Positions 2-16,082 of a stretch of DNA of 64,000 nucleotides are shown one piece after another. The translations under genes were made by a program, and so were the position numbers. Numbering within the stretch: position 1 is the first letter of the stretch; the number at the start of each line of letters is the position of its first letter. The DNA lies in contig NZ_HE997643.1 in NCBI RefSeq assembly GCF_000312485.1, forward strand, positions 548,806-612,805, given 5' to 3'. This DNA is from Yersinia massiliensis CCUG 53443 (GTDB taxonomy: Bacteria > Pseudomonadota > Gammaproteobacteria > Enterobacterales > Enterobacteriaceae). The notes beneath the pieces were generated by a model. That model did no database searches. It had not been told where the DNA came from and saw only the letters and a program-made list of their open reading frames with translations.

Positions 2-1441
2 CTGATGTGGGGGCTGGCTGACGGCTGGACGGTGTCCGGTGGTACCCAGCTTGCCGATCGTTATAGTGCATTCAATCTCGGGATGGCTAAAGATCTGGGC
101 ATTGCCGGTGCCGTGTCGCTGGACATCACCCAAGCCCGAGCCACCCTGCCGGATGACAGCTCGCATCAGGGGCAGTCACTGCGCTTCCTTTATAACAAGG
201 CCCTAAATGAGTGGGGCACCAACCTGCAACTGCTCGGTTACCGTTATTCCACCAGCGGCTATTACAGTCTGGCTGACACCACTTGGAGCCGGATGAATGG
301 CTACAGCGTGGCAACAGATGACGGTATTGTCCAGCTCACGCCGAAGCTCACCGATTACTACAATCTGGCCTACAACAAGCGTGGTCGGTTGCAGATAACG
401 CTAACTCAGCAGGTTGGGGACAATGCGACTTTTTATCTGACCGGCAGTCACCAGACTTATTGGGGGGTTGGTAAGGCAGATGAACAACTTCAGGCCGGTT
501 ACAGCGGCACGCTGGAGGATATCACTTACACCCTCAGCTACAGCCTGACCAAAAATGCCTGGCAGGAGGGACGCGACAATATGTTGGCCTTCAACGTCAG
601 CATCCCGTTCAGCCATTGGCTGCGTTCCGACAACAAGTCCGCTTTCAATCGCTCCACCGTCAGTTACAGCATGTCTGACGATCTGAGCGGCAGGATGACC
701 AATCAGGCTGGGCTATATGGCACGTTACTGGAGGATAACAACCTGAGTTACAACGTGCAGGCCGGTTACGCCGGCGGCGGAATGGGCACTTCAGGCGAGA
801 CGGGGAATACATCGCTGTCTTATCGCGGGGCTTCTGGCAATGCCAACATTGGGTACAGCCGCAGTAGTGGTACCAGCCAACTGTTTTACGGACTGAGCGG
901 CGGCGTGCTGGCGCATGAGAATGGTATCACCCTGAGTCAACCGCTGAACGACACCCTGATCTTGGTCAAAGCGCCGGGGGCAGGCAACGTTTCGGTGGAA
1001 AATCAGAGCGGGATCTATACCGACTGGCGGGGATATGCCGTGCTGCCGTTTGCCATGGATTACCGAGAAAATCGCGTGGCACTGAACCCCAATACGCTGG
1101 CAAACAACGTCGAGTTGGACGAGGCGGTAATCAATGTGGTGCCGAATCACGGCGCCGTGGTGTTGGCCGACTTTAAAACCCGTGTTGGTTTGAAGGTACT
1201 AATGACGCTGACCTATAACGGACAACCCTTGCCGTTCGGATCGGTGGTGTCTTTCGATGATGGCCGTTCTGGCAGCATTGTGGCCGACGGTGGGCAGGTG
1301 TATCTGACCGGTTTGCCGCCAAGTGGTGAAGTGAAAGCCAAATGGGGTGAGGGGGCTGGTGAGCAGTGCGTGGTGAGTTACCAACTGCCGCCGGAAAGTC
1401 AACATCGGGCACTTAGCTATCTAACGGCAGCATGCCGATGA
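2..1441 (+). CDS. fimD: Fimbrial outer-membrane usher FimD, C-terminal part (5' end outside window)
   Basis: About 479 residues are visible and the frame is open at the left edge, so the gene starts upstream. The visible part covers the second half of the beta-barrel (repeated Y/G/S-rich strands such as LSYNVQAGYAGG) and the C-terminal plug-like domains, ending in the usher hallmark of paired cysteines (GEQCVVSYQLP ... LTAACR). Family role: the usher forms the outer-membrane pore through which chaperone-subunit complexes are assembled into a type 1 pilus. It lies directly upstream of two minor pilins and a FimH adhesin, in the order of the E. coli fimDFGH operon. The specific FimD identity rests on that context plus overall resemblance. 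Confidence 0.93.
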   Translation: MMWGLADGWTVSGGTQLADRYSAFNLGMAKDLGIAGAVSLDITQARATLPDDSSHQGQSLRFLYNKALNEWGTNLQLLGYRYSTSGYYSLADTTWSRMNGYSVATDDGIVQLTPKLTDYYNLAYNKRGRLQITLTQQVGDNATFYLTGSHQTYWGVGKADEQLQAGYSGTLEDITYTLSYSLTKNAWQEGRDNMLAFNVSIPFSHWLRSDNKSAFNRSTVSYSMSDDLSGRMTNQAGLYGTLLEDNNLSYNVQAGYAGGGMGTSGETGNTSLSYRGASGNANIGYSRSSGTSQLFYGLSGGVLAHENGITLSQPLNDTLILVKAPGAGNVSVENQSGIYTDWRGYAVLPFAMDYRENRVALNPNTLANNVELDEAVINVVPNHGAVVLADFKTRVGLKVLMTLTYNGQPLPFGSVVSFDDGRSGSIVADGGQVYLTGLPPSGEVKAKWGEGAGEQCVVSYQLPPESQHRALSYLTAACR

Positions 1442-1463
1442 CGTGATGCGGGAGAGGCAAGTA

Positions 1464-1985
1464 ATGAGAACAAAAGTTTATATCCTGTGTCTGCTGGCGC
1501 TGTTTAGCACCAAAGTAACGCAGGCCGCGGACAGCACCATCTCCATTAGCGGCTACGTTAAGGACAATGCCTGCTCTGTTGCACCGGGCTCACAAAGTTT
1601 TGTGGTGGATCTGTTGAGTAATGCGGCCAAGCAGTTGCATCGGGTAGGGGCAACAACGCCGATGATACCGTTCAGCATTGTGCTCGATAATTGCTCGGCG
1701 ATCGCGGTGAAAACGGGTTTCACCGGTGGAGCAGACAGCGACAACCTCAGCCTGCTGAAAATCGACAGTGGTGCCGGTGCGGCGGCCGGCATGGGTATAC
1801 AGATCCTCGATAACAACGGCAATGCCATTGCTCTCAATGAGACATCGAGCGGGCTGAACTGGTCAAGCATAACCGCTGGACAGTCCAATACGCTGTATTT
1901 CTATGCGCGTTTGATGGCGACCGGTACACCGGTGACTGCTGGTCAGGTCAGCGCTACGGCAAACTTTACCCTGGAATTTCAGTAA
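1464..1985 (+). CDS. fimF: Minor fimbrial subunit FimF-like (tip adaptor)
   Basis: A 173-residue pilin beginning MRTKVYILC with a cleavable signal peptide ending near TQA-ADS. The ATG at 1464 is preferred over the GTG at 1443 because a purine-rich GAGGCAAG precedes it and the signal peptide then has normal length. The mature protein starts ADSTISISGYVKDNACSV, keeps the pilin disulfide cysteines, and ends in the usual pilin beta-zipper (ATANFTLEFQ). The N-terminus and the stretch FYARLMATGTPVTAGQ closely resemble E. coli FimF. In type 1 pili FimF links the rod to the FimG-FimH tip. It is cotranscribed with the usher, about 22 bases after its stop. Confidence 0.9.
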   Translation: MRTKVYILCLLALFSTKVTQAADSTISISGYVKDNACSVAPGSQSFVVDLLSNAAKQLHRVGATTPMIPFSIVLDNCSAIAVKTGFTGGADSDNLSLLKIDSGAGAAAGMGIQILDNNGNAIALNETSSGLNWSSITAGQSNTLYFYARLMATGTPVTAGQVSATANFTLEFQ

Positions 1986-1999
1986 CCGGAGAAAGGGCT

Positions 2000-2527
2000 A
2001 TGAACATAAACAAACTGGGGTCGCTCGCTGGGTGGTTACTGATGCTCGTTGGTGGGTTACTGATAACAGTACTCCCTCTGGCACAAGCAGCAGATGTCAC
2101 CATCACTATCAATGGCAAGGTGGTGGCCAAACCTTGCACGGTATCCACCGTATCTACCACGGTAGAACTGGATGATTTGTATACTTTCAACCTGCTAGCG
2201 GTGAATGCGACTTCGCCATGGCATTCGGTGACGTTGAGTCTCACCAACTGCCCGGAAGGGACCACAAAGGTCACCGCGGCCTTTTCTGGCACGGCCGATA
2301 GCACCAACAGTTATTACGCCAATCAGGGCGAGGCCCGCAACATTGCGCTGCAACTGGTCGATAGCGACGGTGTGAATCTGCCCAACGGCAGTACCAAAGT
2401 CGTGGCGGTGAATAATGCCTCATTGTCCGCCAACCTAGTGTTGCAGGTGAGGGCCATCACACCCAGCGGTAATGCGACACAGGGTTCGATTCAATCCCTG
2501 ATCAACGTGACTTACACCTATTCCTGA
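2000..2527 (+). CDS. fimG: Minor fimbrial subunit FimG-like (tip adaptor)
   Basis: A 175-residue pilin with a GGAGAAAGG ribosome site just before the ATG and a hydrophobic signal peptide ending AQA-ADV. The mature N-terminus ADVTITINGKVVAKPCTVST is nearly that of E. coli FimG, as are the DLYTFNLL segment, the NQGEARNIALQL segment and the C-terminus INVTYTYS. In the type 1 pilus FimG donates its N-terminal strand to FimH. It sits 14 bases after fimF and 13 before fimH, so it belongs to the same operon. Normal length, nothing missing. Confidence 0.93.
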   Translation: MNINKLGSLAGWLLMLVGGLLITVLPLAQAADVTITINGKVVAKPCTVSTVSTTVELDDLYTFNLLAVNATSPWHSVTLSLTNCPEGTTKVTAAFSGTADSTNSYYANQGEARNIALQLVDSDGVNLPNGSTKVVAVNNASLSANLVLQVRAITPSGNATQGSIQSLINVTYTYS

Positions 2528-2540
2528 TGATGAAGGACAT

Positions 2541-3461
2541 ATGAAAGACTTAATCCGCGTATTTTTGAAATATCTTGGTGTAGCTGCGATCATGATTGGC
2601 TATTCATCCAATACCCATGCATTTGCTTGCCAAACAGCGACAGGGACGACCATTCCTATTGGCGGCGGCAGCGCCAATGTGTATGTGGATTTGGAGCCAC
2701 AGATCGGGGTGGGCCAAAACTTGGTGGTTGATTTGTCCCGTAGGATCTTCTGTCATAATGATTATCCAGACTCCATGATAGACTACGTTTCTCTGCAAGC
2801 GGGTTCAGCCTATGGTGGCGTACTGGCGAACTTTATGGGGAGTTTTATTTATGACGGTACGCCTTACGCATTCCCGACCACGGCTGAAACCCCCCGGGTG
2901 ATTTATAATTCCAGAACCCCAAAGTCCTGGCCTGCGGTACTTAATCTTACACCGATGGGCACGGCTGGTGGCGTGGCGGTAGAGAACGGCTCGTTAATTG
3001 CTGTGTTAAATATGCATCAGACCAATAATCAAAATGCGGACTCGTTCGCGTATATTTGGAATATCTACGCCAACAATAGTGTGGTGATCCCCACCGGCGG
3101 CTGTGACGTCTCTTCCCGCGACGTCAACGTGAGTCTGCCAGAATATCCGGGAACCGTGTCGATACCGTTGACGATACGTTGTGCCCAGAACCAAAACTTG
3201 GCCTATTACCTGACAGGGCAAACCACGGATCTCGCAAACACGATTTTTGCCAATACCGCCTCTACACCTGTCGCTCAAGGGGTGGGTATTCAGATTGCCA
3301 ACCGCAATGGCGTGATTGCCACTAATCAGAACATCTCGCTGGGTGTCGTTGGCACCTCGTCAACCAGTTTAGGGTTGACCGCCAATTATGCACGAACCAC
3401 CGGCCAAGTCGTGGCCGGTAACGTCAAGTCAGTGGTTGGCGTCACTTTTTTGTATCCGTGA
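2541..3461 (+). CDS. fimH: Type 1 fimbrial tip adhesin FimH (mannose-binding lectin)
   Basis: A 306-residue two-domain adhesin: signal peptide (27 residues, cut before FACQTA), lectin domain (mature 1-158) and pilin domain beginning after the linker PTGGCDVS. Aligned from memory to E. coli FimH without gaps through the lectin domain, the mannose-pocket residues F1, N46, D47, D54, Q133, N135, D140 and F142 are all present. Two residues lining the pocket entrance differ: I52 is Met and Y137 is Gln, while Y48 and I13 are kept. The expected role is adhesion to mannosylated glycoproteins. It is the last structural gene of the fim operon. Confidence in identity is high; the binding preference is inferred. 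Confidence 0.95.
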   Translation: MKDLIRVFLKYLGVAAIMIGYSSNTHAFACQTATGTTIPIGGGSANVYVDLEPQIGVGQNLVVDLSRRIFCHNDYPDSMIDYVSLQAGSAYGGVLANFMGSFIYDGTPYAFPTTAETPRVIYNSRTPKSWPAVLNLTPMGTAGGVAVENGSLIAVLNMHQTNNQNADSFAYIWNIYANNSVVIPTGGCDVSSRDVNVSLPEYPGTVSIPLTIRCAQNQNLAYYLTGQTTDLANTIFANTASTPVAQGVGIQIANRNGVIATNQNISLGVVGTSSTSLGLTANYARTTGQVVAGNVKSVVGVTFLYP

Positions 3462-4041: not shown

Positions 4042-4329
4042 CTAGGCTAAATCAAAATTAGCATAATAATGACCCGCTGATTTAGTCACCATAATTTTAG
4101 GATTCTTCTTTACTTTCTCAGCAATAGATTCGGCTAGTTCACCAACGTCAGATGTGGATTTGGTGTCACTTTTATAACTGTATTCGGCGCTTGGAAGTAA
4201 TTTCTTTACACCAGACTCCGTAATGATCACCGTGCGTGAGAAGCCTTTGATTTCCATTTTTTTATGTAGGTCGTCGTAGTCGGCATCTTCTGAATCACGT
4301 AGCTCAACCCTAACAGTAAATTTCGCCAT
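4042..4329 (-). CDS. Small hypothetical protein, 95 residues
   Basis: Starts MAKFTVRVELRDSEDADYDDLHKKMEIKGF and reads as a compact alternating beta/alpha protein, with a first strand, a helix and a second strand (FSRTVIITESG) much like a ferredoxin-type half. There are no signal peptide, membrane segments or cysteines. An AGGGA site precedes the ATG at a suitable distance. I do not recognise a characterised homologue. It may belong to a family of unknown function in enterobacteria (possibly DUF2622, from memory only). It stands alone between the fimbrial cluster and the PTS operon, in opposite orientation to both. Confidence 0.6.
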   Translation of the reverse strand: MAKFTVRVELRDSEDADYDDLHKKMEIKGFSRTVIITESGVKKLLPSAEYSYKSDTKSTSDVGELAESIAEKVKKNPKIMVTKSAGHYYANFDLA

Positions 4330-4578
4330 TTTTTAAATCCCTATATTAATTATGGAATAATCAACATAGCAATTTCCTTCGACTGTGGAAAGAAGGGAAG
4401 TCATGGCTGTTCAGTCATCTCTGCCGAAAGCGCAATCTCACCTTATTACCGGCACCTTGAGTATTTATTCCTTTTTGATGGACAAATTCTGAGCTTTGAA
4501 TCAGGCAGTATTTGGCCTTGATGGTGAGCATGTTGGCATAGTTTGATAGGGGCGTTAAGTGAACCAGGGGTCCAAGCA

Positions 4579-6144
4579 ATGAAATCTAACTTTAAAAACG
4601 AAATACAGACATTCGGACGCTCCCTATTATTGCCTATTGCCGTTTTAGCACCAGTAGGGATGTTAATGGGGATTTGTAGCGCGCTAGGTCAGGCGTATAT
4701 GATAGACAAGCTACCTTTTCTGGGAAATGCGTATTGCAAGGCGATATTGTCTTCTGTGGGTTTAATCAGCAGCGTCGTGTTCCAAAACATTCCGTTGCTA
4801 TTTGCCATGGGGGTTGCCTATGGCATGTCGAAGAAAGAGAAGGGCATTGCCGTTTTCTCATCAGTCATCGCTTATTTGACGCTGTTGATTTCAATGCATG
4901 TGCATTTGAAATTAATGGATCAATTAGTGACGGAGAATATGGCCTTTGTCGGGCAGGGAATGGTTCTCGGTATCCAAACACTCAAAATAGAGGCGTTGGG
5001 AGGGATCATTGCCGGTTTGCTTGCCGCCAAGGTCACGGACCGGTTTTACCGACTGCAACTGCCGTTGGCATTTGCGTTCTTTAGCGGAAAAAAATCGGTC
5101 GCTATCTTGTCCATTGCCTTCACTATTCCGGTCGGGTTGATCATCCCGTTTGTATGGGACGTCTTTACCTATGGGATGAGAAGCATTTCGACCGTCATGA
5201 TGGCGCCGAACATTGGTGCTGGGATTTACATGACTTTAAACCGTTTATTGATTCCATTCGGTTTACATCATGTGTTGAGTTCGACAGTCCGCTTTACCGA
5301 AGCCGGCGGCACTTATCTGATTGATGGGCAAACCTACGTTGGCATTCTGCCGGCCATGAATAAAATCCTGTTTGAACTGGGACCAAATCATCCGGCCTGG
5401 AATGAGTTTATGCCGACACTGTCCAGTTATTTGGCATCATCACAAATGTTGACCACGTTATTTCGTGTTCCGGCTATTGGTTTGGCGATGTATCACATGG
5501 CCTATATTAAGAACAAGAAGTTTGCCAAGGGGATGATCCTAACAGTCGTCTTGACGGCATTCCTCGGCAATATTACTGAGCCGTTGGAGTTCTCTTTCCT
5601 GTTTATTGCACCTAGGCTATTCATCATCTATGCCATATTGTGCGGCCTGTTAACGATTCCACTGCAAATACTTGAAGTCTCGATTGGTTATATTCGTGGC
5701 ACGATATTCGACTTCGGTATCTTCGGATTAATGTACGAAAATACCCATTGGGTGAACCTTATCATTCTGGGTGCGATCAACTTCGTCGTGTTCTATTTTG
5801 TCTTCCGCTACGCCATTGGAAAATTCGATATTAAAACGCCAGGTCGCGAAAATGAAATGGCCGATAGTGCTCTATTAAATAACAAAGAGTATGACAAGGT
5901 GGCGCAATTGGTTGTGGAAGGTTTGGGTGGCAAGAATAATATCAAACGAGTGGAAAACTGTGTGTCACGGCTGCGTATTGATCTCAGTGATCAGAAATTG
6001 GTGAACATGGAATTACTGAAAGAGTCTGGGTCACTGGGGACGTTTATTCCATCCAGCAACCATATTCACGTCGTATTTGGACCGCACGTCGAGTTTGTCC
6101 GCAATGCGGTAGACGATCAACTTGCTGGCATTACACAGCGTTAA
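4579..6144 (+). CDS. PTS sugar permease, fused IIC-IIB of the glucose/N-acetylglucosamine family
   Basis: A protein of 521 residues from the ATG at 4579, where MKSNFKNEIQTFGRSLLLPIAVLAP matches the family's usual N-terminus; an upstream GTG at 4543 would add 12 residues. The N-terminal ~400 residues form a multi-spanning IIC channel with the signature GNITEPLEFSFLFIAP. A IIB domain follows, whose phosphorylated cysteine lies in NCVSRLRIDL (Cys461 from this start). There is no IIA domain, so phosphate probably comes from a separate IIA such as Crr. It imports a sugar or amino sugar as its phosphate. It is first in an operon with a lyase (11-base gap) and a NagA-like enzyme, which points to a modified amino sugar; the substrate is unknown. 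Confidence 0.9.
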   Translation: MKSNFKNEIQTFGRSLLLPIAVLAPVGMLMGICSALGQAYMIDKLPFLGNAYCKAILSSVGLISSVVFQNIPLLFAMGVAYGMSKKEKGIAVFSSVIAYLTLLISMHVHLKLMDQLVTENMAFVGQGMVLGIQTLKIEALGGIIAGLLAAKVTDRFYRLQLPLAFAFFSGKKSVAILSIAFTIPVGLIIPFVWDVFTYGMRSISTVMMAPNIGAGIYMTLNRLLIPFGLHHVLSSTVRFTEAGGTYLIDGQTYVGILPAMNKILFELGPNHPAWNEFMPTLSSYLASSQMLTTLFRVPAIGLAMYHMAYIKNKKFAKGMILTVVLTAFLGNITEPLEFSFLFIAPRLFIIYAILCGLLTIPLQILEVSIGYIRGTIFDFGIFGLMYENTHWVNLIILGAINFVVFYFVFRYAIGKFDIKTPGRENEMADSALLNNKEYDKVAQLVVEGLGGKNNIKRVENCVSRLRIDLSDQKLVNMELLKESGSLGTFIPSSNHIHVVFGPHVEFVRNAVDDQLAGITQR

Positions 6145-6155
6145 GAGGGTACAGC

Positions 6156-7508
6156 ATGCGCGCATTATATGATTCAAAAAGTAAGACCATCGACCATCAA
6201 GGAATGAAAGACCTGTTCACACATGAGGCCAGAGTACAGTCATGGCTTGATGTCGAAGGTGCTCTGGCGATGGCGCAAGCCAAGGTCGGTATGATCCCAA
6301 CGGCTGCGGCGGAAAATATCGCAGCTAACTGCCGGCTTGAGCGCATTGATCTTGCCGAAGTTGATCGGCTGTTGCGCCAGATTGGTCACGGTTTTGTTCC
6401 GGTTATCAAGGTGTTGGTGAAAGCCTGTGATGCACAAAGCGGTAAGTATGTGCATTACGGTGTGACCACCCAGAACATTCAACAGACGGCCCATCTGCTG
6501 ATCGTGAAGAAATTCCACCAAAAGCTGATGAAATTCGTGGATGACACGCTGGTCAATCTAGCGCATCTGGCGAAAGAACATAAAGACACGCTGATGGCGG
6601 GTCGCACGCACGGTAAGCACGCGTTACCCATTACCTACGGCTATAAAGTCTCTGTGTGGATCTATGAACTGCTGGCGGCGGTCGAACGTATGCAGGAAGC
6701 CGAAAAACGCGTGTTTACTGTCATGATGGGCGGTGCCGTAGGCGCTTTTCATGCGACAGGAGAACCGGGCAGAAGGGTACAGGATTTGGTTGCCGAAGAA
6801 CTCGGTATGCATTCGATGTTGGTTCCGTCGCGTAATGCCAGGGTATTTCGTGCCGAGTACATCACCAATCTGTGTCTGCTGGCGACGACCTTGCATAAAA
6901 TCGCTGAGGAGGTTTATCAGACCTCAAGTGAGGAATTTGGTGAAGTGTCAGAGGCATTCACTAAAGGCACCGTAGGCAGCAGTACCATGCCGCAGAAGGT
7001 CAATCCCAAACTCGCGAAAGGCATTATTGCGAACGCGCAAAAGCTGTATTCGGTCCTGACAGCGACACTGTATGTTTGCCCGCGGCCTTTTGAAGCCGAC
7101 AGCTCCGCTTACTTCATTTTTGATGCTAGCCTGCAAGAAAGTATTGAACTGATGGCGGAAATTATCCTGCGCGCCGAGGAGCTAACGCGGACGCTGGTGA
7201 TTAACCCTGAGCGGATGCATGACAATGTCATGCTGACACATGGGTTGATTAACAGTGAGAAAATCATGATGAAACTGATCGATAAATTGGGCAAAGACCC
7301 CGCTCATGAACTGGTTTATAGCATGGCGATGCGCAGTACACATGAGCATCTCGAATACAGCGAAGTACTGAGCAATGATCCAATGATGGCTGATAATTTC
7401 ACGGCTGATGAGATAGCCGAGCTGCTCGATCCCCGCACTTATACCGGACTGTGTGCCGTCATCGCCGCTGAATTGGCTGATCGGGTACTGAGAGGCAGAA
7501 ATGAATAA
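6156..7508 (+). CDS. Fumarase/aspartase-superfamily lyase, adenylosuccinate-lyase-like
   Basis: 450 residues with the three conserved blocks of the superfamily: HYGVTTQNIQQT (His100), GRTHGKHALPITYG (His152/His155) and the mobile-loop signature GSSTMPQKVNP (Ser275/276). Enzymes of this superfamily cleave C-N or C-O bonds by beta-elimination and usually release fumarate; close relatives are PurB and the cycloisomerase PcaB. The gene overlaps the following deacetylase gene by 8 bases and follows the PTS gene by 11, so it is cotranscribed with sugar uptake. It is therefore unlikely to be the housekeeping PurB. I infer that it acts on an imported, phosphorylated conjugate bearing a dicarboxylic group. 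The family is clear, the substrate is not. Confidence 0.85.
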   Translation: MRALYDSKSKTIDHQGMKDLFTHEARVQSWLDVEGALAMAQAKVGMIPTAAAENIAANCRLERIDLAEVDRLLRQIGHGFVPVIKVLVKACDAQSGKYVHYGVTTQNIQQTAHLLIVKKFHQKLMKFVDDTLVNLAHLAKEHKDTLMAGRTHGKHALPITYGYKVSVWIYELLAAVERMQEAEKRVFTVMMGGAVGAFHATGEPGRRVQDLVAEELGMHSMLVPSRNARVFRAEYITNLCLLATTLHKIAEEVYQTSSEEFGEVSEAFTKGTVGSSTMPQKVNPKLAKGIIANAQKLYSVLTATLYVCPRPFEADSSAYFIFDASLQESIELMAEIILRAEELTRTLVINPERMHDNVMLTHGLINSEKIMMKLIDKLGKDPAHELVYSMAMRSTHEHLEYSEVLSNDPMMADNFTADEIAELLDPRTYTGLCAVIAAELADRVLRGRNE

Positions 7509-8721
7509 CCTCCGCTCTGGCGTCATTAAGTCCAACAGGATCGTATTCCCTGATGGGGTCAAGGCCGGTTATTTGTTGGTGCAAGAAGGGAAAATCAGCG
7601 GATTTGAAACCCATTTTTCCGGCGAGCATATCGACTTTAGCGACAAGATTATTATGCCCGGCTTTGTCGATATTCATGTGCACGGCTGGGGGCGGGGCTC
7701 TTTCGCTTATAAGGGAAATAAAGCGGCGCTTAAATGGATGAGTCATGATCTGGTGAAGGTCGGGGTGACGTCATATTTGCCGACGTCTGGGACGATGCCG
7801 AATACATTTCTGGAAGCTTCGCTGGTAGAGGCCGCAGATTATATCGCCACGGCCACCCCCGCCGAGGGGGCGGAGGCGATTGGCATCCATATGGAAGGGC
7901 CTTACATCAGCGAAAAACATCTTGGTATGCAGCGAGCCGATTCGCTACAGCCTCCCAGTATTGGTGGATTTGACCACTTCAATAGGTTGGCTGGCCAGAA
8001 TATCCGCCTGATGACGTTGGCACCAGAACTAGAGGGAGCGCTAGAGCTGATTCGTCACCTACGCGCGAAGGGAATTACCGCGTCGGCAGGGCATACTGAT
8101 GCCACTTTTGCTGAGGTGACGGCGGCGGTTGAAGCTGGATTAAGCCATTTCACTCACGCTTACAGTGGGATGCGTGGTTTTCATCATCGTGAGCTCGGTG
8201 TGGTTGGGGCGCTGATGTACCATCAGGATACTTACGCGGAAGTGGCAAAACAGAGTGGTATCACCATCAAGCCTGAAGCCTTTGATCTGCTTTATCGCCT
8301 TAAACGCGACCGAAGAATGGTTTTGATGAGTGATTGCATGGGTTATGTCGACTTCCCTGAGGGCTATGAGTTTTACCATTATCTGCGCAAAGAGACATTC
8401 CGCATCAAGCAAGGGCAGTTGGAGATTGCCGCGGATAGTGGTGAAACACAGTATGTTTGTCCCTGCGACTATTCATCAGTGAAGCAACTTGAGATGAACT
8501 TCTTGGATTCGGTAAAGAGCATCTTCGATCGTCTGGATAATGGCTGGATATCGGTGGCCAAAATCGCTTGTGAAAACCCGTCGATTCTGGCGGGGGCGCA
8601 GGACAGGAAAGGCTCTCTATGCTCGGGGAAGGATGCTGATATTCTGGTGTTGGATGATGATTTCAATTTGATCGATGTCTATTGTCGCGGGCTGCGCCAG
8701 GTACAACTTCGCGAAGTGTAG
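7501..8721 (+). CDS. NagA-like amidohydrolase (N-acetylhexosamine-6-phosphate deacetylase family)
   Basis: 406 residues (E. coli NagA has 382). Metal and catalytic positions are visible in order: HVH (59-61), HMEGPYIS with Glu132, SAGHTDAT with His198, HFTHAYSGM with His219, and SDCMG with Asp278. The usual C-terminal NagA block G-S-x-L-T-M is absent; that region instead carries an extra segment (about 281-330) with VCPCDYSS. This suggests a different acyl or sugar substrate from N-acetylglucosamine-6-phosphate. Translation is coupled to the upstream lyase by an 8-base overlap. I call the family with confidence and leave the substrate open. Confidence 0.85.
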   Translation: MNNLRSGVIKSNRIVFPDGVKAGYLLVQEGKISGFETHFSGEHIDFSDKIIMPGFVDIHVHGWGRGSFAYKGNKAALKWMSHDLVKVGVTSYLPTSGTMPNTFLEASLVEAADYIATATPAEGAEAIGIHMEGPYISEKHLGMQRADSLQPPSIGGFDHFNRLAGQNIRLMTLAPELEGALELIRHLRAKGITASAGHTDATFAEVTAAVEAGLSHFTHAYSGMRGFHHRELGVVGALMYHQDTYAEVAKQSGITIKPEAFDLLYRLKRDRRMVLMSDCMGYVDFPEGYEFYHYLRKETFRIKQGQLEIAADSGETQYVCPCDYSSVKQLEMNFLDSVKSIFDRLDNGWISVAKIACENPSILAGAQDRKGSLCSGKDADILVLDDDFNLIDVYCRGLRQVQLREV

Positions 8722-8727
8722 TTCCAC

Positions 8728-8758
8728 GCAACAGAACGGTTCACATCCGTTCTGTTGC
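8728..8758. terminator. Hairpin terminator between convergent genes
   Basis: A perfect 12-bp stem, GCAACAGAACGG / CCGTTCTGTTGC, with a 7-base loop begins 7 bases after the deacetylase stop. It also lies just beyond the end of the convergent regulator. No clear T run follows, so it may act on both transcripts or rely on Rho. Confidence 0.6.
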
Positions 8759-8778
8759 CAACAACCCTGTGTTTCGTT

Positions 8779-10326
8779 TTAAATAAAAAAGTCAGGATAC
8801 TTCTGCCCCAACAAGGTTTGCAGTTGCTGATGATCCAACCCCTCTATATCTTGAAGAAATTCCTCGGTAGGGATTTTCTTTTTCGCCCGTGAAAGTCCAT
8901 GTTTGCCAAGCAGCGAGATGTCATCACGGCTCAAATAGAAATTCACTTTAATGTAATCCAACTGATAGTACTTCAGGTAGCTGGATATTTTATTGGTGAA
9001 GGTAATGAGCAAATCAAAAGGCGTCTGTTCCAACGTGTGCAACTCGTTAATATTGACACAGCAAAGGATCTCAATATGGAAGTGCGATTTCAAAACCTCT
9101 TTGAAATAGCCGACCTTACTTTCCGAAGAATTGGTCACAATAATAATGCGTTTCTTATATTCGCTGTGAACCCGATTCTGCAATTCATATTTCTTTAGGA
9201 TTAAGACGAGTGTTGACAGATGCACCGTCGAAAATGTGGTCTGATAATAGTGCGCAACGGCTGAGGTGGCCTGAAACACTGCCTGATATAACAGGGCATG
9301 CCGAGTCTGGACCTCATGCAGTTTTTTGTCGTCGAAGTATAAATTGAACTTGCTTTGTACGATGGTGGAATAGATGAACTGATAAACCTCAGCAAAGAAC
9401 GGCGATGCGTTGTGTATTTCAGCGCGTAATAGCGGGGAAATGTACTCACAAAAATGCCTGACCAGTATGACTAGCTTAGGGTCATAGACATCAAATGGAC
9501 GCCAAGTGTAGGTCAATGAGGAGATCAGAAGATCAAGAAAGCGATTTTCATGTTCATTGTCCAGCAGTGCGAAATCGAGCGACTGAATAAAGTTGAGATT
9601 ATGGCTGTGGGTAATCTCGTGCCCACGCCGCCGACGTTGCAGGGCAATACTCATGTACACCAGAAAATATTTCTTGCTGTTGTAACCTAGCGTGATCTTG
9701 TTGCTTAGTCGTTGCTGATAAATCTCGGCGGCAGTGCGGATCTCCGATTGGCACTCGCTCAGAAACTGCGTCGCAATCGATTTATTGATTGGTTCGTTAG
9801 CTTTGTGTGGCACCAGCAGATGACCTTCACCAATTTCTACGGTTTTGAGAATAGTCAGGCAGATAGCGATACGTAGGTGAATTTCGTCACCCTCTAGCCG
9901 CGACCCTTGTTTGTGAATAGTGGTAATAGCGAGATGGTTGCTCTGCAGAAATGCCAATAGCGGCTGATTATCATTTTTGAGGGTGGTGGGGCTAACATTG
10001 AACTTCCGATAGTATTCGCTTTTATTCACCACATCCCGCAGGGACAATGCCACGCAGAGATCCTTAATGCGTTCCTCCCCAGTGGTTATGTAGCGGTTAA
10101 AAGGAATATGCTCTAGGAAATCGATATATTCTCGATAAGTAATGGCCGTAATGATCGACGCCCCCTCGATATGAAGGTGGTAGGCGGGCTTAAGAAATTC
10201 GTTAATTTCTTTCATTGCTCGCTTTAGTGTCGACGTGGTTTTGCCGAATTTGGTCGTAATATCTTTGATTAATACAGGGCTGTGCTCCTGAATATATTTT
10301 AAGAATGACAGGTCAAAGCTGTTCAT
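8779..10326 (-). CDS. PTS-regulated transcriptional activator (BglG/MtlR type)
   Basis: 515 residues. The N-terminus reads as two helix-turn-helix segments (residues about 5-60 and 85-150, with TTLKNDNQPLLAFLQ). A long helical middle follows, of the kind seen in PRD domains, although the diagnostic conserved histidines are not obvious. The C-terminus (about 390-515) resembles a IIB domain with RIIIVTNSSESKVGYFKEVLK. Relatives such as MtlR and LicR activate PTS operons and are switched by phosphorylation. It faces the PTS-lyase-deacetylase operon tail to tail and is its likely regulator. No RNA-binding CAT domain is evident, so DNA-binding activation is more likely than antitermination. Confidence 0.75.
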   Translation of the reverse strand: MNSFDLSFLKYIQEHSPVLIKDITTKFGKTTSTLKRAMKEINEFLKPAYHLHIEGASIITAITYREYIDFLEHIPFNRYITTGEERIKDLCVALSLRDVVNKSEYYRKFNVSPTTLKNDNQPLLAFLQSNHLAITTIHKQGSRLEGDEIHLRIAICLTILKTVEIGEGHLLVPHKANEPINKSIATQFLSECQSEIRTAAEIYQQRLSNKITLGYNSKKYFLVYMSIALQRRRRGHEITHSHNLNFIQSLDFALLDNEHENRFLDLLISSLTYTWRPFDVYDPKLVILVRHFCEYISPLLRAEIHNASPFFAEVYQFIYSTIVQSKFNLYFDDKKLHEVQTRHALLYQAVFQATSAVAHYYQTTFSTVHLSTLVLILKKYELQNRVHSEYKKRIIIVTNSSESKVGYFKEVLKSHFHIEILCCVNINELHTLEQTPFDLLITFTNKISSYLKYYQLDYIKVNFYLSRDDISLLGKHGLSRAKKKIPTEEFLQDIEGLDHQQLQTLLGQKYPDFFI

Positions 10327-11102: not shown

Positions 11103-11807
11103 ATGATGGATTTCTTTGCTTTAGATTATGATTCTTTATCCAAAAGAAAATCGAGTGAGTTATTTTCCCTAAGAAAAAAAACATTTAAAGATCGCCTTAA
11201 CTGGAGAGTAGATTGTGAAGAAAATATGGAATTCGATGGCTATGATAATAAAAACACCACCTACATCTTAGGTGCATATAATGATGCTGTTATCTGCAGT
11301 TTAAGGTTTATAGAAACAAAATTTCCTAATATGATAATCGATACTTTTAGACCTTATTTTAAAAACTTAAGTTTACCGGAAGGGAACTATGTTGAAGCTA
11401 GTCGGTTGTTTATTGATAAAGAGAGGGTAAAATCGCTTTGTCTTCAACAACATCCTATCAGCTTGATTCTTTTTTTATCGATGATCAATTATGCAAAAAA
11501 AATGAGTTATCAAGGTATTTATGCGATTGTTAGCCATCCCATGCTGATTATTTTCCAGCGTTCTGGCTGGCAGATTTCTGTTGTTGAAACGGGGCTTTCA
11601 GAGAAAAACCAAAATATTTATCTAATTTATATGCCTGTGGATGAATATAACCAGCAGATCTTAATCAACCGCATCAATGAAACCCCGTTCATCTTGAATG
11701 GAAATTTAAATGCTTGGCCATTATCATTCAGTAGTAGGGAAAACCGGTCTGATAAGGTTCAATTCGATCCCGAGCCTTATGGCGTGCTTGGCATTGGTAA
11801 CACCTAG
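11103..11807 (+). CDS. LuxI-family N-acyl-homoserine lactone synthase (first pair)
   Basis: 234 residues, with GAGAG seven bases before the ATG. Conserved catalytic-cleft residues are present: LRKKTFKDRLNW (Arg, Phe, Trp), EFDGYDN (acidic pair), SLRFIE and EASRLFID. The enzyme joins an acyl group from acyl-ACP to S-adenosylmethionine to make an AHL signal. It resembles EsaI and YenI/YpsI. At the position equivalent to EsaI Thr140, which favours 3-oxo chains, it has Ala (IYAIVSHPM). The C-terminus runs about 20 residues past the usual family end and overlaps the convergent luxR by 84 bases. Species-specific symbols (ypsI, yenI, yspI) cannot be assigned from the sequence alone. Confidence 0.93.
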   Translation: MMDFFALDYDSLSKRKSSELFSLRKKTFKDRLNWRVDCEENMEFDGYDNKNTTYILGAYNDAVICSLRFIETKFPNMIIDTFRPYFKNLSLPEGNYVEASRLFIDKERVKSLCLQQHPISLILFLSMINYAKKMSYQGIYAIVSHPMLIIFQRSGWQISVVETGLSEKNQNIYLIYMPVDEYNQQILINRINETPFILNGNLNAWPLSFSSRENRSDKVQFDPEPYGVLGIGNT

Positions 11808-12467
11808 TTTTTTGACCGCATTACCAATATGATATTTTACTGTGGTGAGCTTAATGCCTAAAATAAGGGCAATTTCCTGATAGGATTTTCCCATGCTCGC
11901 CCAGTAAAGTATTTCATTTTCACGTTCGGAGAATAACTCTTTGGGGGCTGTTTTCTCTAGATTACTTGCGGCACTAAACTCTTGGTAAAGTGTTAGCAAT
12001 TTCTCGTGCGTTGTTAATAATAACATTTGAAGATCGTTTTTTTTGTCTGCGATTAACGCTTCTATATCATCATCACAAGTGTCATCAATTATCATAGACA
12101 GAACAACAAGGTTATGATGGTGGTCGTGAAGGACAAAGGTATATCCACTAATGACGTTATAATTTTTTGCCATATCAAAAATTTTCGGCATTTTTAACCC
12201 TGAGCTGATCATTAAATTCTCATCCCAAGGGAAGGGGGTAACACGGTACGATGCTGTAATAAGGACAGGGTCTATGAATTGATAATTATTTTTAGTGTAA
12301 AACTCAAACCATTCAGTTCTATTCGATATAATTGCAAAGTTTGTGGGGTTTTTTTTGTTCATTATTGCATAGGCATATTTGATGTTGTTAAAGGGTTTTA
12401 GGTTTTTCTCCAAATAGCTTTTTATGGACGCATTAATATAAGTATTGCTAAAAAATGAACTTGACAC
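11724..12467 (-). CDS. LuxR-family AHL-responsive regulator (first pair)
   Basis: 247 residues from a GTG start with AAGGAG eight bases upstream. The N-terminal autoinducer domain keeps the ligand-pocket residues: W and Y in EWFEFYTKNNY, D-P in FIDPVL, W in FPWDEN and G in [10 protein letters not shown]. The C-terminal LuxR helix-turn-helix is [37 protein letters not shown], split here around the conserved E, L and G. The tail-to-tail overlap with luxI is typical of the EsaR/YenR group, whose members can bind DNA without ligand and are released by the AHL. Repressor behaviour here is inferred from that kinship. Confidence 0.93.
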   Translation of the reverse strand: MSSSFFSNTYINASIKSYLEKNLKPFNNIKYAYAIMNKKNPTNFAIISNRTEWFEFYTKNNYQFIDPVLITASYRVTPFPWDENLMISSGLKMPKIFDMAKNYNVISGYTFVLHDHHHNLVVLSMIIDDTCDDDIEALIADKKNDLQMLLLTTHEKLLTLYQEFSAASNLEKTAPKELFSERENEILYWASMGKSYQEIALILGIKLTTVKYHIGNAVKKLGVTNAKHAIRLGIELNLIRPVFPTTE

Positions 12468-14472: not shown

Positions 14473-14663
14473 GCATTCTCACTACTACAAATCTTTTATG
14501 GCAAAACCTCCTTAATATCGCCTTAACCCAATGGGTGTTATCAGTCTGAGGCTCTCGCTTGGCTGAGCATTTCTCCTCCTATTACGGGTTTAAAAATAAA
14601 AATAACTATCTGGTGCGGACACTGACAGCGTCCGGGATGGAAAAATACACTGGAGTAAATATT

Positions 14664-16082
14664 GTGAGCAAATTGATTAGACAGATGTCGGTAGGGATAT
14701 TGGCTCTTTTGGCGATAGGGTGGGCATTTTCTCTGGCGGCAGCACCGACGCCACCGATTGAGGCCCGCAACGATAAATTCGCTGAGCAGCATATTGATCA
14801 GTTCACTTCTTGGCTAAAAACCAAAGAGAGTGGACCCCGTGAAGATGCCTTAGCAGAAGACCCAAACTTGGTCATCCTTTGGGCGGGTTATCCCTTCGCG
14901 AAAGATTATAACAAGCCTCGTGGACACTATTATGCTGTCACTGATGTGCGGGAAACGTTGCGTACAGCTGCACCGAAAACCGCCGAGGATGGCCCTTTAC
15001 CCATGGCATGTTGGAGTTGTAAAAGCCCGGATGTCGCTCGCTTAATCAATGAACAGGGCGAAGAAGGTTACTTCAAAGGAACATGGGCCAGAGGCGGGCC
15101 GGAAGTGGTCAATCAGTTAGGTTGCGCGGACTGCCATGATACCGCGTCAGCCGATTTTGCGGCGGGCAAACCTGCATTGGTGTTATCTCGCCCTTATGCA
15201 GAGCGCGCGTTGCAATCTATCAATAAGCCTTTCGATCATGCCAGCCGTCTAGACCAACAATCCATGGTTTGCAGTCAGTGCCATGTTGAATATCACTTCG
15301 CGGGTAAAGACAAAGCGGTGAAATTCCCTTGGGACAAAGGCACCGACGTGGAATCAATGGAGAAATATTATGATGAAATCGCATTCTCTGATTGGATTCA
15401 TCCGCTTTCTAAAACCCCAATGTTAAAAGCACAGCATCCTGAGTATGAAACTTGGCGCGCTGGTATTCACGGCAAAAATAATGTCAGTTGTATCGATTGC
15501 CATATGCCGAAAATTCAAAACGCGGCGGGCAAAGTCTATACCGATCACCAAATTCGTAATCCTTTCGAGAGTTTCGAAACCACTTGCGTTAATTGCCATA
15601 CCCAAGACAAAAAAACGTTGCAGGACATCGTCGCTGAACGTAAAGCCAGCATTCAGGAAATGAAACTGAATGTCGAAAAACAACTGGTCCATGCGCATTA
15701 CGAAGCCAAAGCAGCTTGGGATGCCGGCGCGACTGAAGAAGAAATGAAGCCTATCTTGCAAGATATCCGTCATGCGCAGTGGCGTTGGGACTATGCCATC
15801 GCTTCCCACGGCATTCATATGCATGCCCCTGATGTTGGTTTGAAAGTGCTGGGTGGTGCGTTGAATAAAGCCGCCGATGCGCGTACCAAACTGACGCGCC
15901 TGCTCGCAACGAAAGGCATTAGCCACGAGATCCCGTTGCCGGATATTTCGACCAAACTCAATGCGCAAAAAGCGTTGGGAATGGATATGGATAAGCTGAA
16001 TCGCGAGAAACAGGAGTTTCTGCAACAAGTGGTGCCAGCCTGGGATGATCAGGCCCGAAAAGCAGGCCGTTTGAGCCAGTAA
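14664..16082 (+). CDS. nrfA: Cytochrome c552 nitrite reductase, catalytic subunit NrfA
   Basis: 472 residues from a GTG at 14664, chosen because GGAG lies eight bases before it and the protein then opens with a normal signal peptide ([26 protein letters not shown], split by its hydrophobic core). The open frame continues upstream to 14559 but would bury the signal peptide. Five haem sites are visible: the special active-site CWSCK with lysine ligand, then CADCH, CSQCH, CIDCH and CVNCH. The periplasmic enzyme reduces nitrite to ammonium with six electrons. It is near full-length (E. coli has 478 residues) and highly similar throughout. First gene of the nrf operon. Confidence 0.97.

Follow-up and report, generated by a model that had tools for sequence, protein, structure and literature searches.

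What does a bacterium break down with an operon that sets a phosphotransferase system (PTS) permease beside a lyase of the fumarate-releasing kind? The question is raised by a locus at positions 4579 to 10326 of a 64,000-nucleotide stretch of the Yersinia massiliensis CCUG 53443 genome (contig NZ_HE997643.1, positions 548,806 to 612,805; hereafter the window). Three co-directional genes on the forward strand encode a PTS glucose-superfamily IICB permease (4579..6144, start ATG at 4579 with an in-frame TTG upstream at 4543), a fumarate-lyase-superfamily enzyme of the PurB/3-carboxymuconate cycloisomerase (CMLE) branch with proposed fumarate release (6156..7508), and a NagA-like amidohydrolase that is a proposed N-deacetylase (7501..8721). 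A gap of 11 bases separates the first two genes, the second and third overlap by 8 bases, and 57 bases lie between the NagA-like gene and a convergent gene on the reverse strand (8779..10326) for an Mga-type regulator that probably belongs to the PRD kind. Among these open reading frame (ORF) spacings, the gap of 11 bases and the overlap of 8 bases agree exactly with a preliminary description of the DNA made from its letters alone, and the operon is real and conserved. We conclude, with a probability of about 0.7, that it serves the PTS-linked catabolism of a conjugate between an amino sugar and a C4 dicarboxylate. Genomic context supports this reading, including the PTS import already suggested in the preliminary description, and the chemistry would run as follows. 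The permease would import and phosphorylate the conjugate, borrowing an EIIA, probably EIIA-Glc. Beta-elimination by the lyase would then part the succinyl skeleton from the sugar phosphate, leaving fumarate, and a NagA-like or ChbG-like deacetylase would take off an acetyl group before or after that step. NagA and NagB would carry N-acetylglucosamine (GlcNAc)-6-phosphate and glucosamine (GlcN)-6-phosphate to fructose-6-phosphate, under the presumed control of an Mga-type or RpiR-type regulator.

In Pfam, the permease carries PTS_EIIC (PF02378, 4.5e-53) and PTS_EIIB (PF00367, 6.5e-11), the lyase Lyase_1 (4e-41) and ADSL_C (2.8e-16), the amidohydrolase Amidohydro_1 (8.1e-16), and the regulator an Mga helix-turn-helix (8.4e-10; PF05043, 39.5 against a cutoff of 21.1). 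The permease, lyase and NagA-like protein each fall under the curated whole-protein cutoff of the specific NCBIfam enzyme model. For the lyase, the PurB models give 278.8 against 326.2 (TIGR00928) and 341 against 626 (NF006500). Databases name such proteins "adenylosuccinate lyase family protein," a label that would suit an extra housekeeping adenylosuccinate lyase with PTS and NagA neighbors by chance. We regard that explanation as highly improbable, given the scores under the PurB cutoffs, an 801-bit PurB elsewhere in the genome (G000:C1:647633-648997) and the permease linkage described below. The lyase was rejected as the housekeeping purB of the genome since that PurB lies elsewhere; the operon's enzyme is probably misnamed, and very probably does something other than what its database name implies. 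Two more PurB-superfamily paralogues occur in the same genome (C1:82576-83850, 32%; C1:1385463-1386728, 27%).

Relatives of the locus were collected using the lyase alone. Two short lyase peptides were run against GTDB species genomes, and the best 80 of 84 relatives gave 78 loci. Further scans, with E limits of 1e-100 or 1e-110, covered the order of Vagococcus lutrae (22 of 395 genomes positive), the order of Clostridium asparagiforme (2 of 392), the order of an Erysipelotrichaceae (6 of 294) and the family of an Oceanobacillus (11 of 159). Wider neighborhoods were taken for 35 places, which together with L009 and L010 brought the total to 115 loci. Removal of 8 duplicates, one of which (L096) is a different species with an identical lyase segment, left 107 distinct loci, a set outside which the window locus itself stands. 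Because the lyase alone served as finder, the neighbor counts are unselected; because many loci come from related species, the 107 are not independent cases. Neighboring genes were labeled by their best BLASTP match, at E 1e-8 or better, within a set of 16 reference proteins. NCBIfam models were run on ten neighbors, and nine agreed with the class assigned by eye, four of them over the curated cutoff (both class I fumarase subunits, NagB and HAD) and five under it (two malic enzymes, FumC of L088, ChbG of L055 and RpiR of L066).

The 107 loci span Gammaproteobacteria and Firmicutes, and the 78 from the species scan include Proteus, Providencia, Morganella, Citrobacter, Kluyvera, Serratia, Vagococcus, Tetragenococcus, Oceanobacillus and gut Firmicutes. 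Their core unit is permease, lyase and regulator. A co-directional IICB gene, at least 50% identical to that of the window, lies directly upstream of the lyase in 100 of the 107 loci, an association that exceeds chance, and such an IICB lies somewhere within the locus in 103. The lyase has a regulator of the Mga or RpiR type nearby in 101 loci (RpiR-type in 47), and an EIIA gene in 19. The preliminary description had treated permease, lyase and NagA-like gene as a unit, to be sought together in a neighborhood search. In the loci collected with the lyase alone, the pairing of permease and lyase stood; the third member did not, as 38 loci have a NagA-like gene close to the lyase and 69 do not (some of these ended by contig edges). 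Among 60 genomes including that of the window, an orthologue above 70% identity was listed only in the window's genome, in one of 24 congeners (99%) and in one family member (74%); the distribution is patchy. The 74% relative has the permease, the lyase and the convergent regulator in an operon without a NagA-like gene, and its best NagA-like proteins genome-wide reach 30-34% identity. On this relative and the counts above, the trio was rejected as an obligate unit. A clade of Proteus, Providencia and Morganella (27 rows, including three metagenome rows) has an RpiR regulator in 26 rows and no tracked accessory gene near. Since permease and lyase seemingly suffice, the lyase step alone should yield products usable by central metabolism.

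The strongest result of the analysis bears on the nature of those products. In a Lactobacillales control (20 of 22 lyase-positive and 20 of 373 lyase-negative genomes, class II fumarase at E <= 1e-150), 17 of the 20 lyase-positive genomes have a single class II fumarase; for 12 of these 17 the gene sits within the lyase locus, one of the 12 being the distant L163/G275 with a 38% lyase. Class II fumarase was found in 6 of the 20 lyase-negative genomes. Across the whole set, a fumarase is near in 13 of 107 loci (12 class II FumC and one unrelated class I enzyme) and a malic enzyme in 9. Class II FumC and malic enzyme occur together in Vagococcus and related genomes, where the FumC of L088 scores 642.8 against a TIGR00979 cutoff of 664.75. 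L049 combines a class I two-subunit fumarase (NF004885, 356.9 against 276; NF005310, 246 against 238) with a malic enzyme, and the FumC-bearing L155 has, 535 bases upstream of its IICB gene, a malic-enzyme-family protein with a malolactic look by eye. Fumarase changes state five times on a quick, midpoint-rooted lyase tree that omits three of the 107 lyases (under 400 amino acids); with 39 of 102 forks open and a long branch to L163, such state-change counts and any direction of transfer are approximate. That sister operons repeatedly carry a fumarase or a malic enzyme indicates that the lyase very probably frees fumarate, which bears out the preliminary description on this point. A lyase that makes no fumarate but acts as a decarboxylase, isomerase or carbon-sulfur lyase, with the fumarase as a passenger, would suit its closest solved relatives, which include trans-aconitate decarboxylase and 3-carboxymuconate cycloisomerase, and the 3-sulfopropionylcysteine synthase XcbD model that NCBIfam also returns for it (326 against a cutoff of 600). 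Two unrelated fumarases, malic-enzyme-family proteins and 12 of 17 single fumarases borne in the locus are hard to account for as passengers, however, and we consider this explanation improbable.

In the lyase, H78, H100, H152, S275, K281 and N283 are invariant across 104 rows, a count that leaves out L163 as well as the three short lyases. These three His, the Ser loop, the Lys and the Asn are catalytic positions of the superfamily, presumably matching those of the B. subtilis enzyme. The PTS-linked lyases also retain R2 (93/104), K8 (99/104), K10 (95/104) and K288 (104/104), and five aligned alphaproteobacterial relatives are without K8, K10 and K288. This is the pattern a phosphate site would predict, and we infer that K8, K10 and K288 may bind phosphate. 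The enzyme shares with the PurB/CMLE branch its Pfam family, signature regions and active-site His, Ser, Lys and Asn, but differs in its scores under the family cutoffs, its PTS linkage, its ALYDSKSK-type N-terminal start and K288. The alphaproteobacterial lyases L183, L184 and L185 are 39-46% identical, and no PTS gene is annotated or seen around them (L184 by eye); peptide-type ABC transporter genes lie beside two and mandelate-racemase-family genes in the surroundings of two. In Cereibacter, the source of the 46% relative, the run of genes around this lyase also encodes another lyase, a peptide-type ABC transporter and a class II fumarase, so that fumarate release may predate the link to a PTS.

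Context likewise supports the amino sugar of the preliminary description. A deacetylase is near in 42 of the 107 loci (NagA-like in 38, ChbG-like in 6, both in 2), and the recurrence of two unrelated deacetylase families indicates an N-acetyl group. NagB lies beside L043 (TIGR00502, 421 against 236.9) and near L052. In genome-wide searches all 14 lyase genomes tested for NagB had one (12 over cutoff, against 4 of 14 controls), and all 30 tested for NagA had one over cutoff (controls, 7 of 14). A glycoside hydrolase family 4 (GH4) enzyme occurs in seven Lachnospiraceae/Erysipelotrichaceae operons; the one checked in a PDB search, that of L058, best matched solved 6-phospho-alpha-glucosidases, and it matched no NCBIfam 6-phospho-alpha-glucosidase model. 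GH4 genes near L090 and L161 were excluded as members of another sugar cluster whose IICB is 26-29% identical to that of the window. The sugar part probably ends as GlcNAc-6-phosphate or GlcN-6-phosphate. The window's NagA-like protein falls marginally under the TIGR00221 cutoff (223.9 against 225.65). It resembles NagA as an amidohydrolase with conserved metal ligands (H59, H61, E132, H198 and H219 in 35/35 rows) and catalytic Asp (D278 in 34/35), in an alignment that drew on 34 of the 38 loci and left out proteins under 370 amino acids. The phosphate contacts of E. coli NagA are, we take it, N219, R227 and H251; the equivalent of R227 is kept as R230, whereas S222 (34/35) and T255 (35/35) replace the other two.

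Which conjugate would combine these features? GlcN(Ac)-alpha-L-malate, the core of bacillithiol, fits the whole set: an amino sugar, an N-acetyl group, the alpha-glycosidic hint of the GH4 enzyme, a MalX-like permease and fumarate. Bacillithiol is an alpha-anomeric glycoside in which cysteinyl-glucosamine is joined to L-malic acid (PMC8301015), and GlcN-malate is presumed to be recycled after Bca action (PMC4101496, which prints "maleate"). GlcNAc- or GlcN-alpha-L-malate is tentatively the likeliest substrate and the best single candidate because it would also explain the deacetylases and the GH4 enzymes of the seven operons. Of 30 lyase genomes tested, 7 have a BshA over cutoff, and the window's genome gave no BshA match; on these counts most carriers would be scavengers. 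The operon could conceivably be the first catabolic route for the core of bacillithiol, by which bacteria that mostly do not make bacillithiol would scavenge and phosphorylate the GlcN(Ac)-malate that Bacilli and their relatives shed, a proposal that we put forward as speculative. If it is true, a new fumarate-releasing lyase cleaves an O-glycoside through elimination, not hydrolysis.

An N-linked conjugate would place the cut elsewhere. An aspartate Heyns or Amadori product, such as N-(glucos-2-yl)- or N-fructosyl-aspartate, would be split at its C-N bond into fumarate and GlcN-6-phosphate or 1-aminofructose-6-phosphate. Enzymes of the PurB branch classically cut the C-N bond of N-substituted aspartates, and the Cereibacter gene run with its second lyase, fumarase and peptide-type transporter would fit as well. 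A known bacterial intermediate is 6-phosphofructose-aspartate, and the Salmonella fra pathway for fructose-asparagine has a phosphorylated sugar-aspartate intermediate of this sort; that pathway uses the kinase FraD and the deglycase FraB, whereas the window has a PTS and a proposed fumarate-releasing lyase. An N-linked substrate would leave the deacetylases near 42 loci and the GH4 enzymes of seven operons unexplained, and besides the SIS parts of RpiR regulators a single SIS-type ORF was seen by eye (upstream, in L094), no deglycase profile search having been made. We judge it unlikely, though a serious rival. GlcNAc-asparagine was set aside as a substrate, since an aspartase-like cut would leave a fumaramide, an unusable product.

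Equally unlikely is an ether of malate or another dicarboxylate elsewhere on GlcNAc, as in an analogue of muramic acid, or another undescribed amino-sugar conjugate. The logic of N-acetylmuramic acid use, which we take to run from a PTS through an ether-removing enzyme to GlcNAc-6-phosphate, is alike and suits the core of permease and lyase, but the 6-phospho-alpha-glucosidase-type GH4 favors an alpha-glycoside, and we know of no natural compound of this kind.

Besides the solved relatives of the lyase, several observations weigh against a GlcN(Ac)-malate substrate or against amino-sugar dicarboxylate catabolism as a whole. No deacetylase is near 65 of the 107 loci and no fumarase near 94, and 12 of the 13 fumarase loci come from Lactobacillales and thus represent few independent events. 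The presence of NagA and NagB in control genomes makes their genome-wide occurrence weak evidence. Given the replaced phosphate contacts, the substrate of the NagA-like protein may differ from free GlcNAc-6-phosphate, and the acyl compound on which it acts may be other than a simple sugar 6-phosphate. If the lyase by itself splits the malate glycoside, a GH4 enzyme would be superfluous. N-linked aspartate conjugates are nearer the classical PurB chemistry, and the peptide-type ABC transporters beside alphaproteobacterial lyases would fit N-linked aspartate-type substrates equally. The literature covered yielded no demonstration of free GlcN-malate as a nutrient.

The permease is closest to MalX models yet under their cutoffs (TIGR02004, 388.8 against 632.2). 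Its family conserves the EIIB phospho-Cys (C461, at least 97% of 98 rows) and a GNxTEP motif, and no EIIA domain was found in the window protein. For the facing regulator, the preliminary description had proposed a PTS-regulated activator. The Mga helix-turn-helix and the convergent orientation were confirmed; the Pfam PRD score is under cutoff in the window (12.2 against 23) and over it in the homologue of L154 (24.1 against 23). A structural model of the regulator (mean predicted local distance difference test score 87.8) matched AtxA and Mga-family regulators in Foldseek (E 7e-10 to 7e-9), with template modeling scores of 0.40-0.48 and a large root-mean-square deviation, so that the agreement is at the domain level. 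The proposed type of regulator is plausible, with PTS control and activation as putative features.

The operon follows the scheme of a PTS plus an acid-stripping enzyme typified by MurP/MurQ, with a different enzyme. As we understand that system, MurP, like the window permease, is an IICB without EIIA, and one enzyme strips an acid from a sugar 6-phosphate to give GlcNAc-6-phosphate, as is proposed for the operon here; MurR is presumably an RpiR-type regulator like those of 47 loci here. MurQ is, we believe, a SIS-domain etherase that releases lactate, whereas no SIS-domain MurQ is present in the window operon, whose enzymes are Lyase_1 and Amidohydro_1 proteins, and fumarate-metabolism genes accompany some relatives. 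Bacillithiol metabolism (BshA, BshB and Bca) handles GlcNAc-malate and GlcN-malate, the kind of compound proposed here, but in the covered parts of PMC4101496 and PMC8301015 its enzymes are biosynthetic or amidases, and neither a lyase nor a PTS appears there. A description of this gene set or pathway was not found in open-access literature (titles and abstract openings, with subscription journals and preprints outside the scope), a weak negative that is in keeping with the preliminary description, which knew of no described pathway. The operon is widespread in gut and environmental bacteria, and use of its conjugate is nowhere described in the literature covered. The fumarase evidence makes the reaction directly testable via fumarate and suggests that a nutrient combining an amino sugar with a C4 acid has been overlooked.

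On the midpoint-rooted tree, the Proteus, Providencia and Morganella clade nests inside Lactobacillales, apart from the clade of the window, which suggests that Gammaproteobacteria acquired the operon in separate entries. The Klebsiella aerogenes plasmid pC9_001 (L186), typed as conjugative, carries a regulator, an EIIC and a 56% lyase. Carriage by E. coli was rejected, as blastn with the lyase and NagA-like DNA (E 1e-20) gave no match in 5,426 genomes. In Candidatus Symbiopectobacterium endolongispinus (L023) the IICB gene is in several pieces, and in Kluyvera genomosp. 3 (L095) the IICB, lyase and regulator genes are fragmented, through decay or sequencing error in each case.

A role in anti-phage defense was rejected, as the four locus proteins are without any PADLOC match. 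A small reverse-strand protein at window positions 4042-4329 bears a weak likeness to the YmfI phage family (40.9 against a cutoff of 140). Further upstream, at 5-3461, lie genes for a fimbrial usher (PF00577) and a FimH-like mannose-binding protein (PF09160), with two subunit-like ORFs, identified by eye, between them. On the other side of the operon, an autoinducer synthase gene (PF00765; 11103-11807, forward strand) converges on and overlaps a LuxR-type receptor gene (PF03472 and GerE; 11724-12467, reverse strand). A cytochrome c552 family protein, which we take to be a nitrite reductase, is encoded at 14559-16082 (PF02335, 587 bits).

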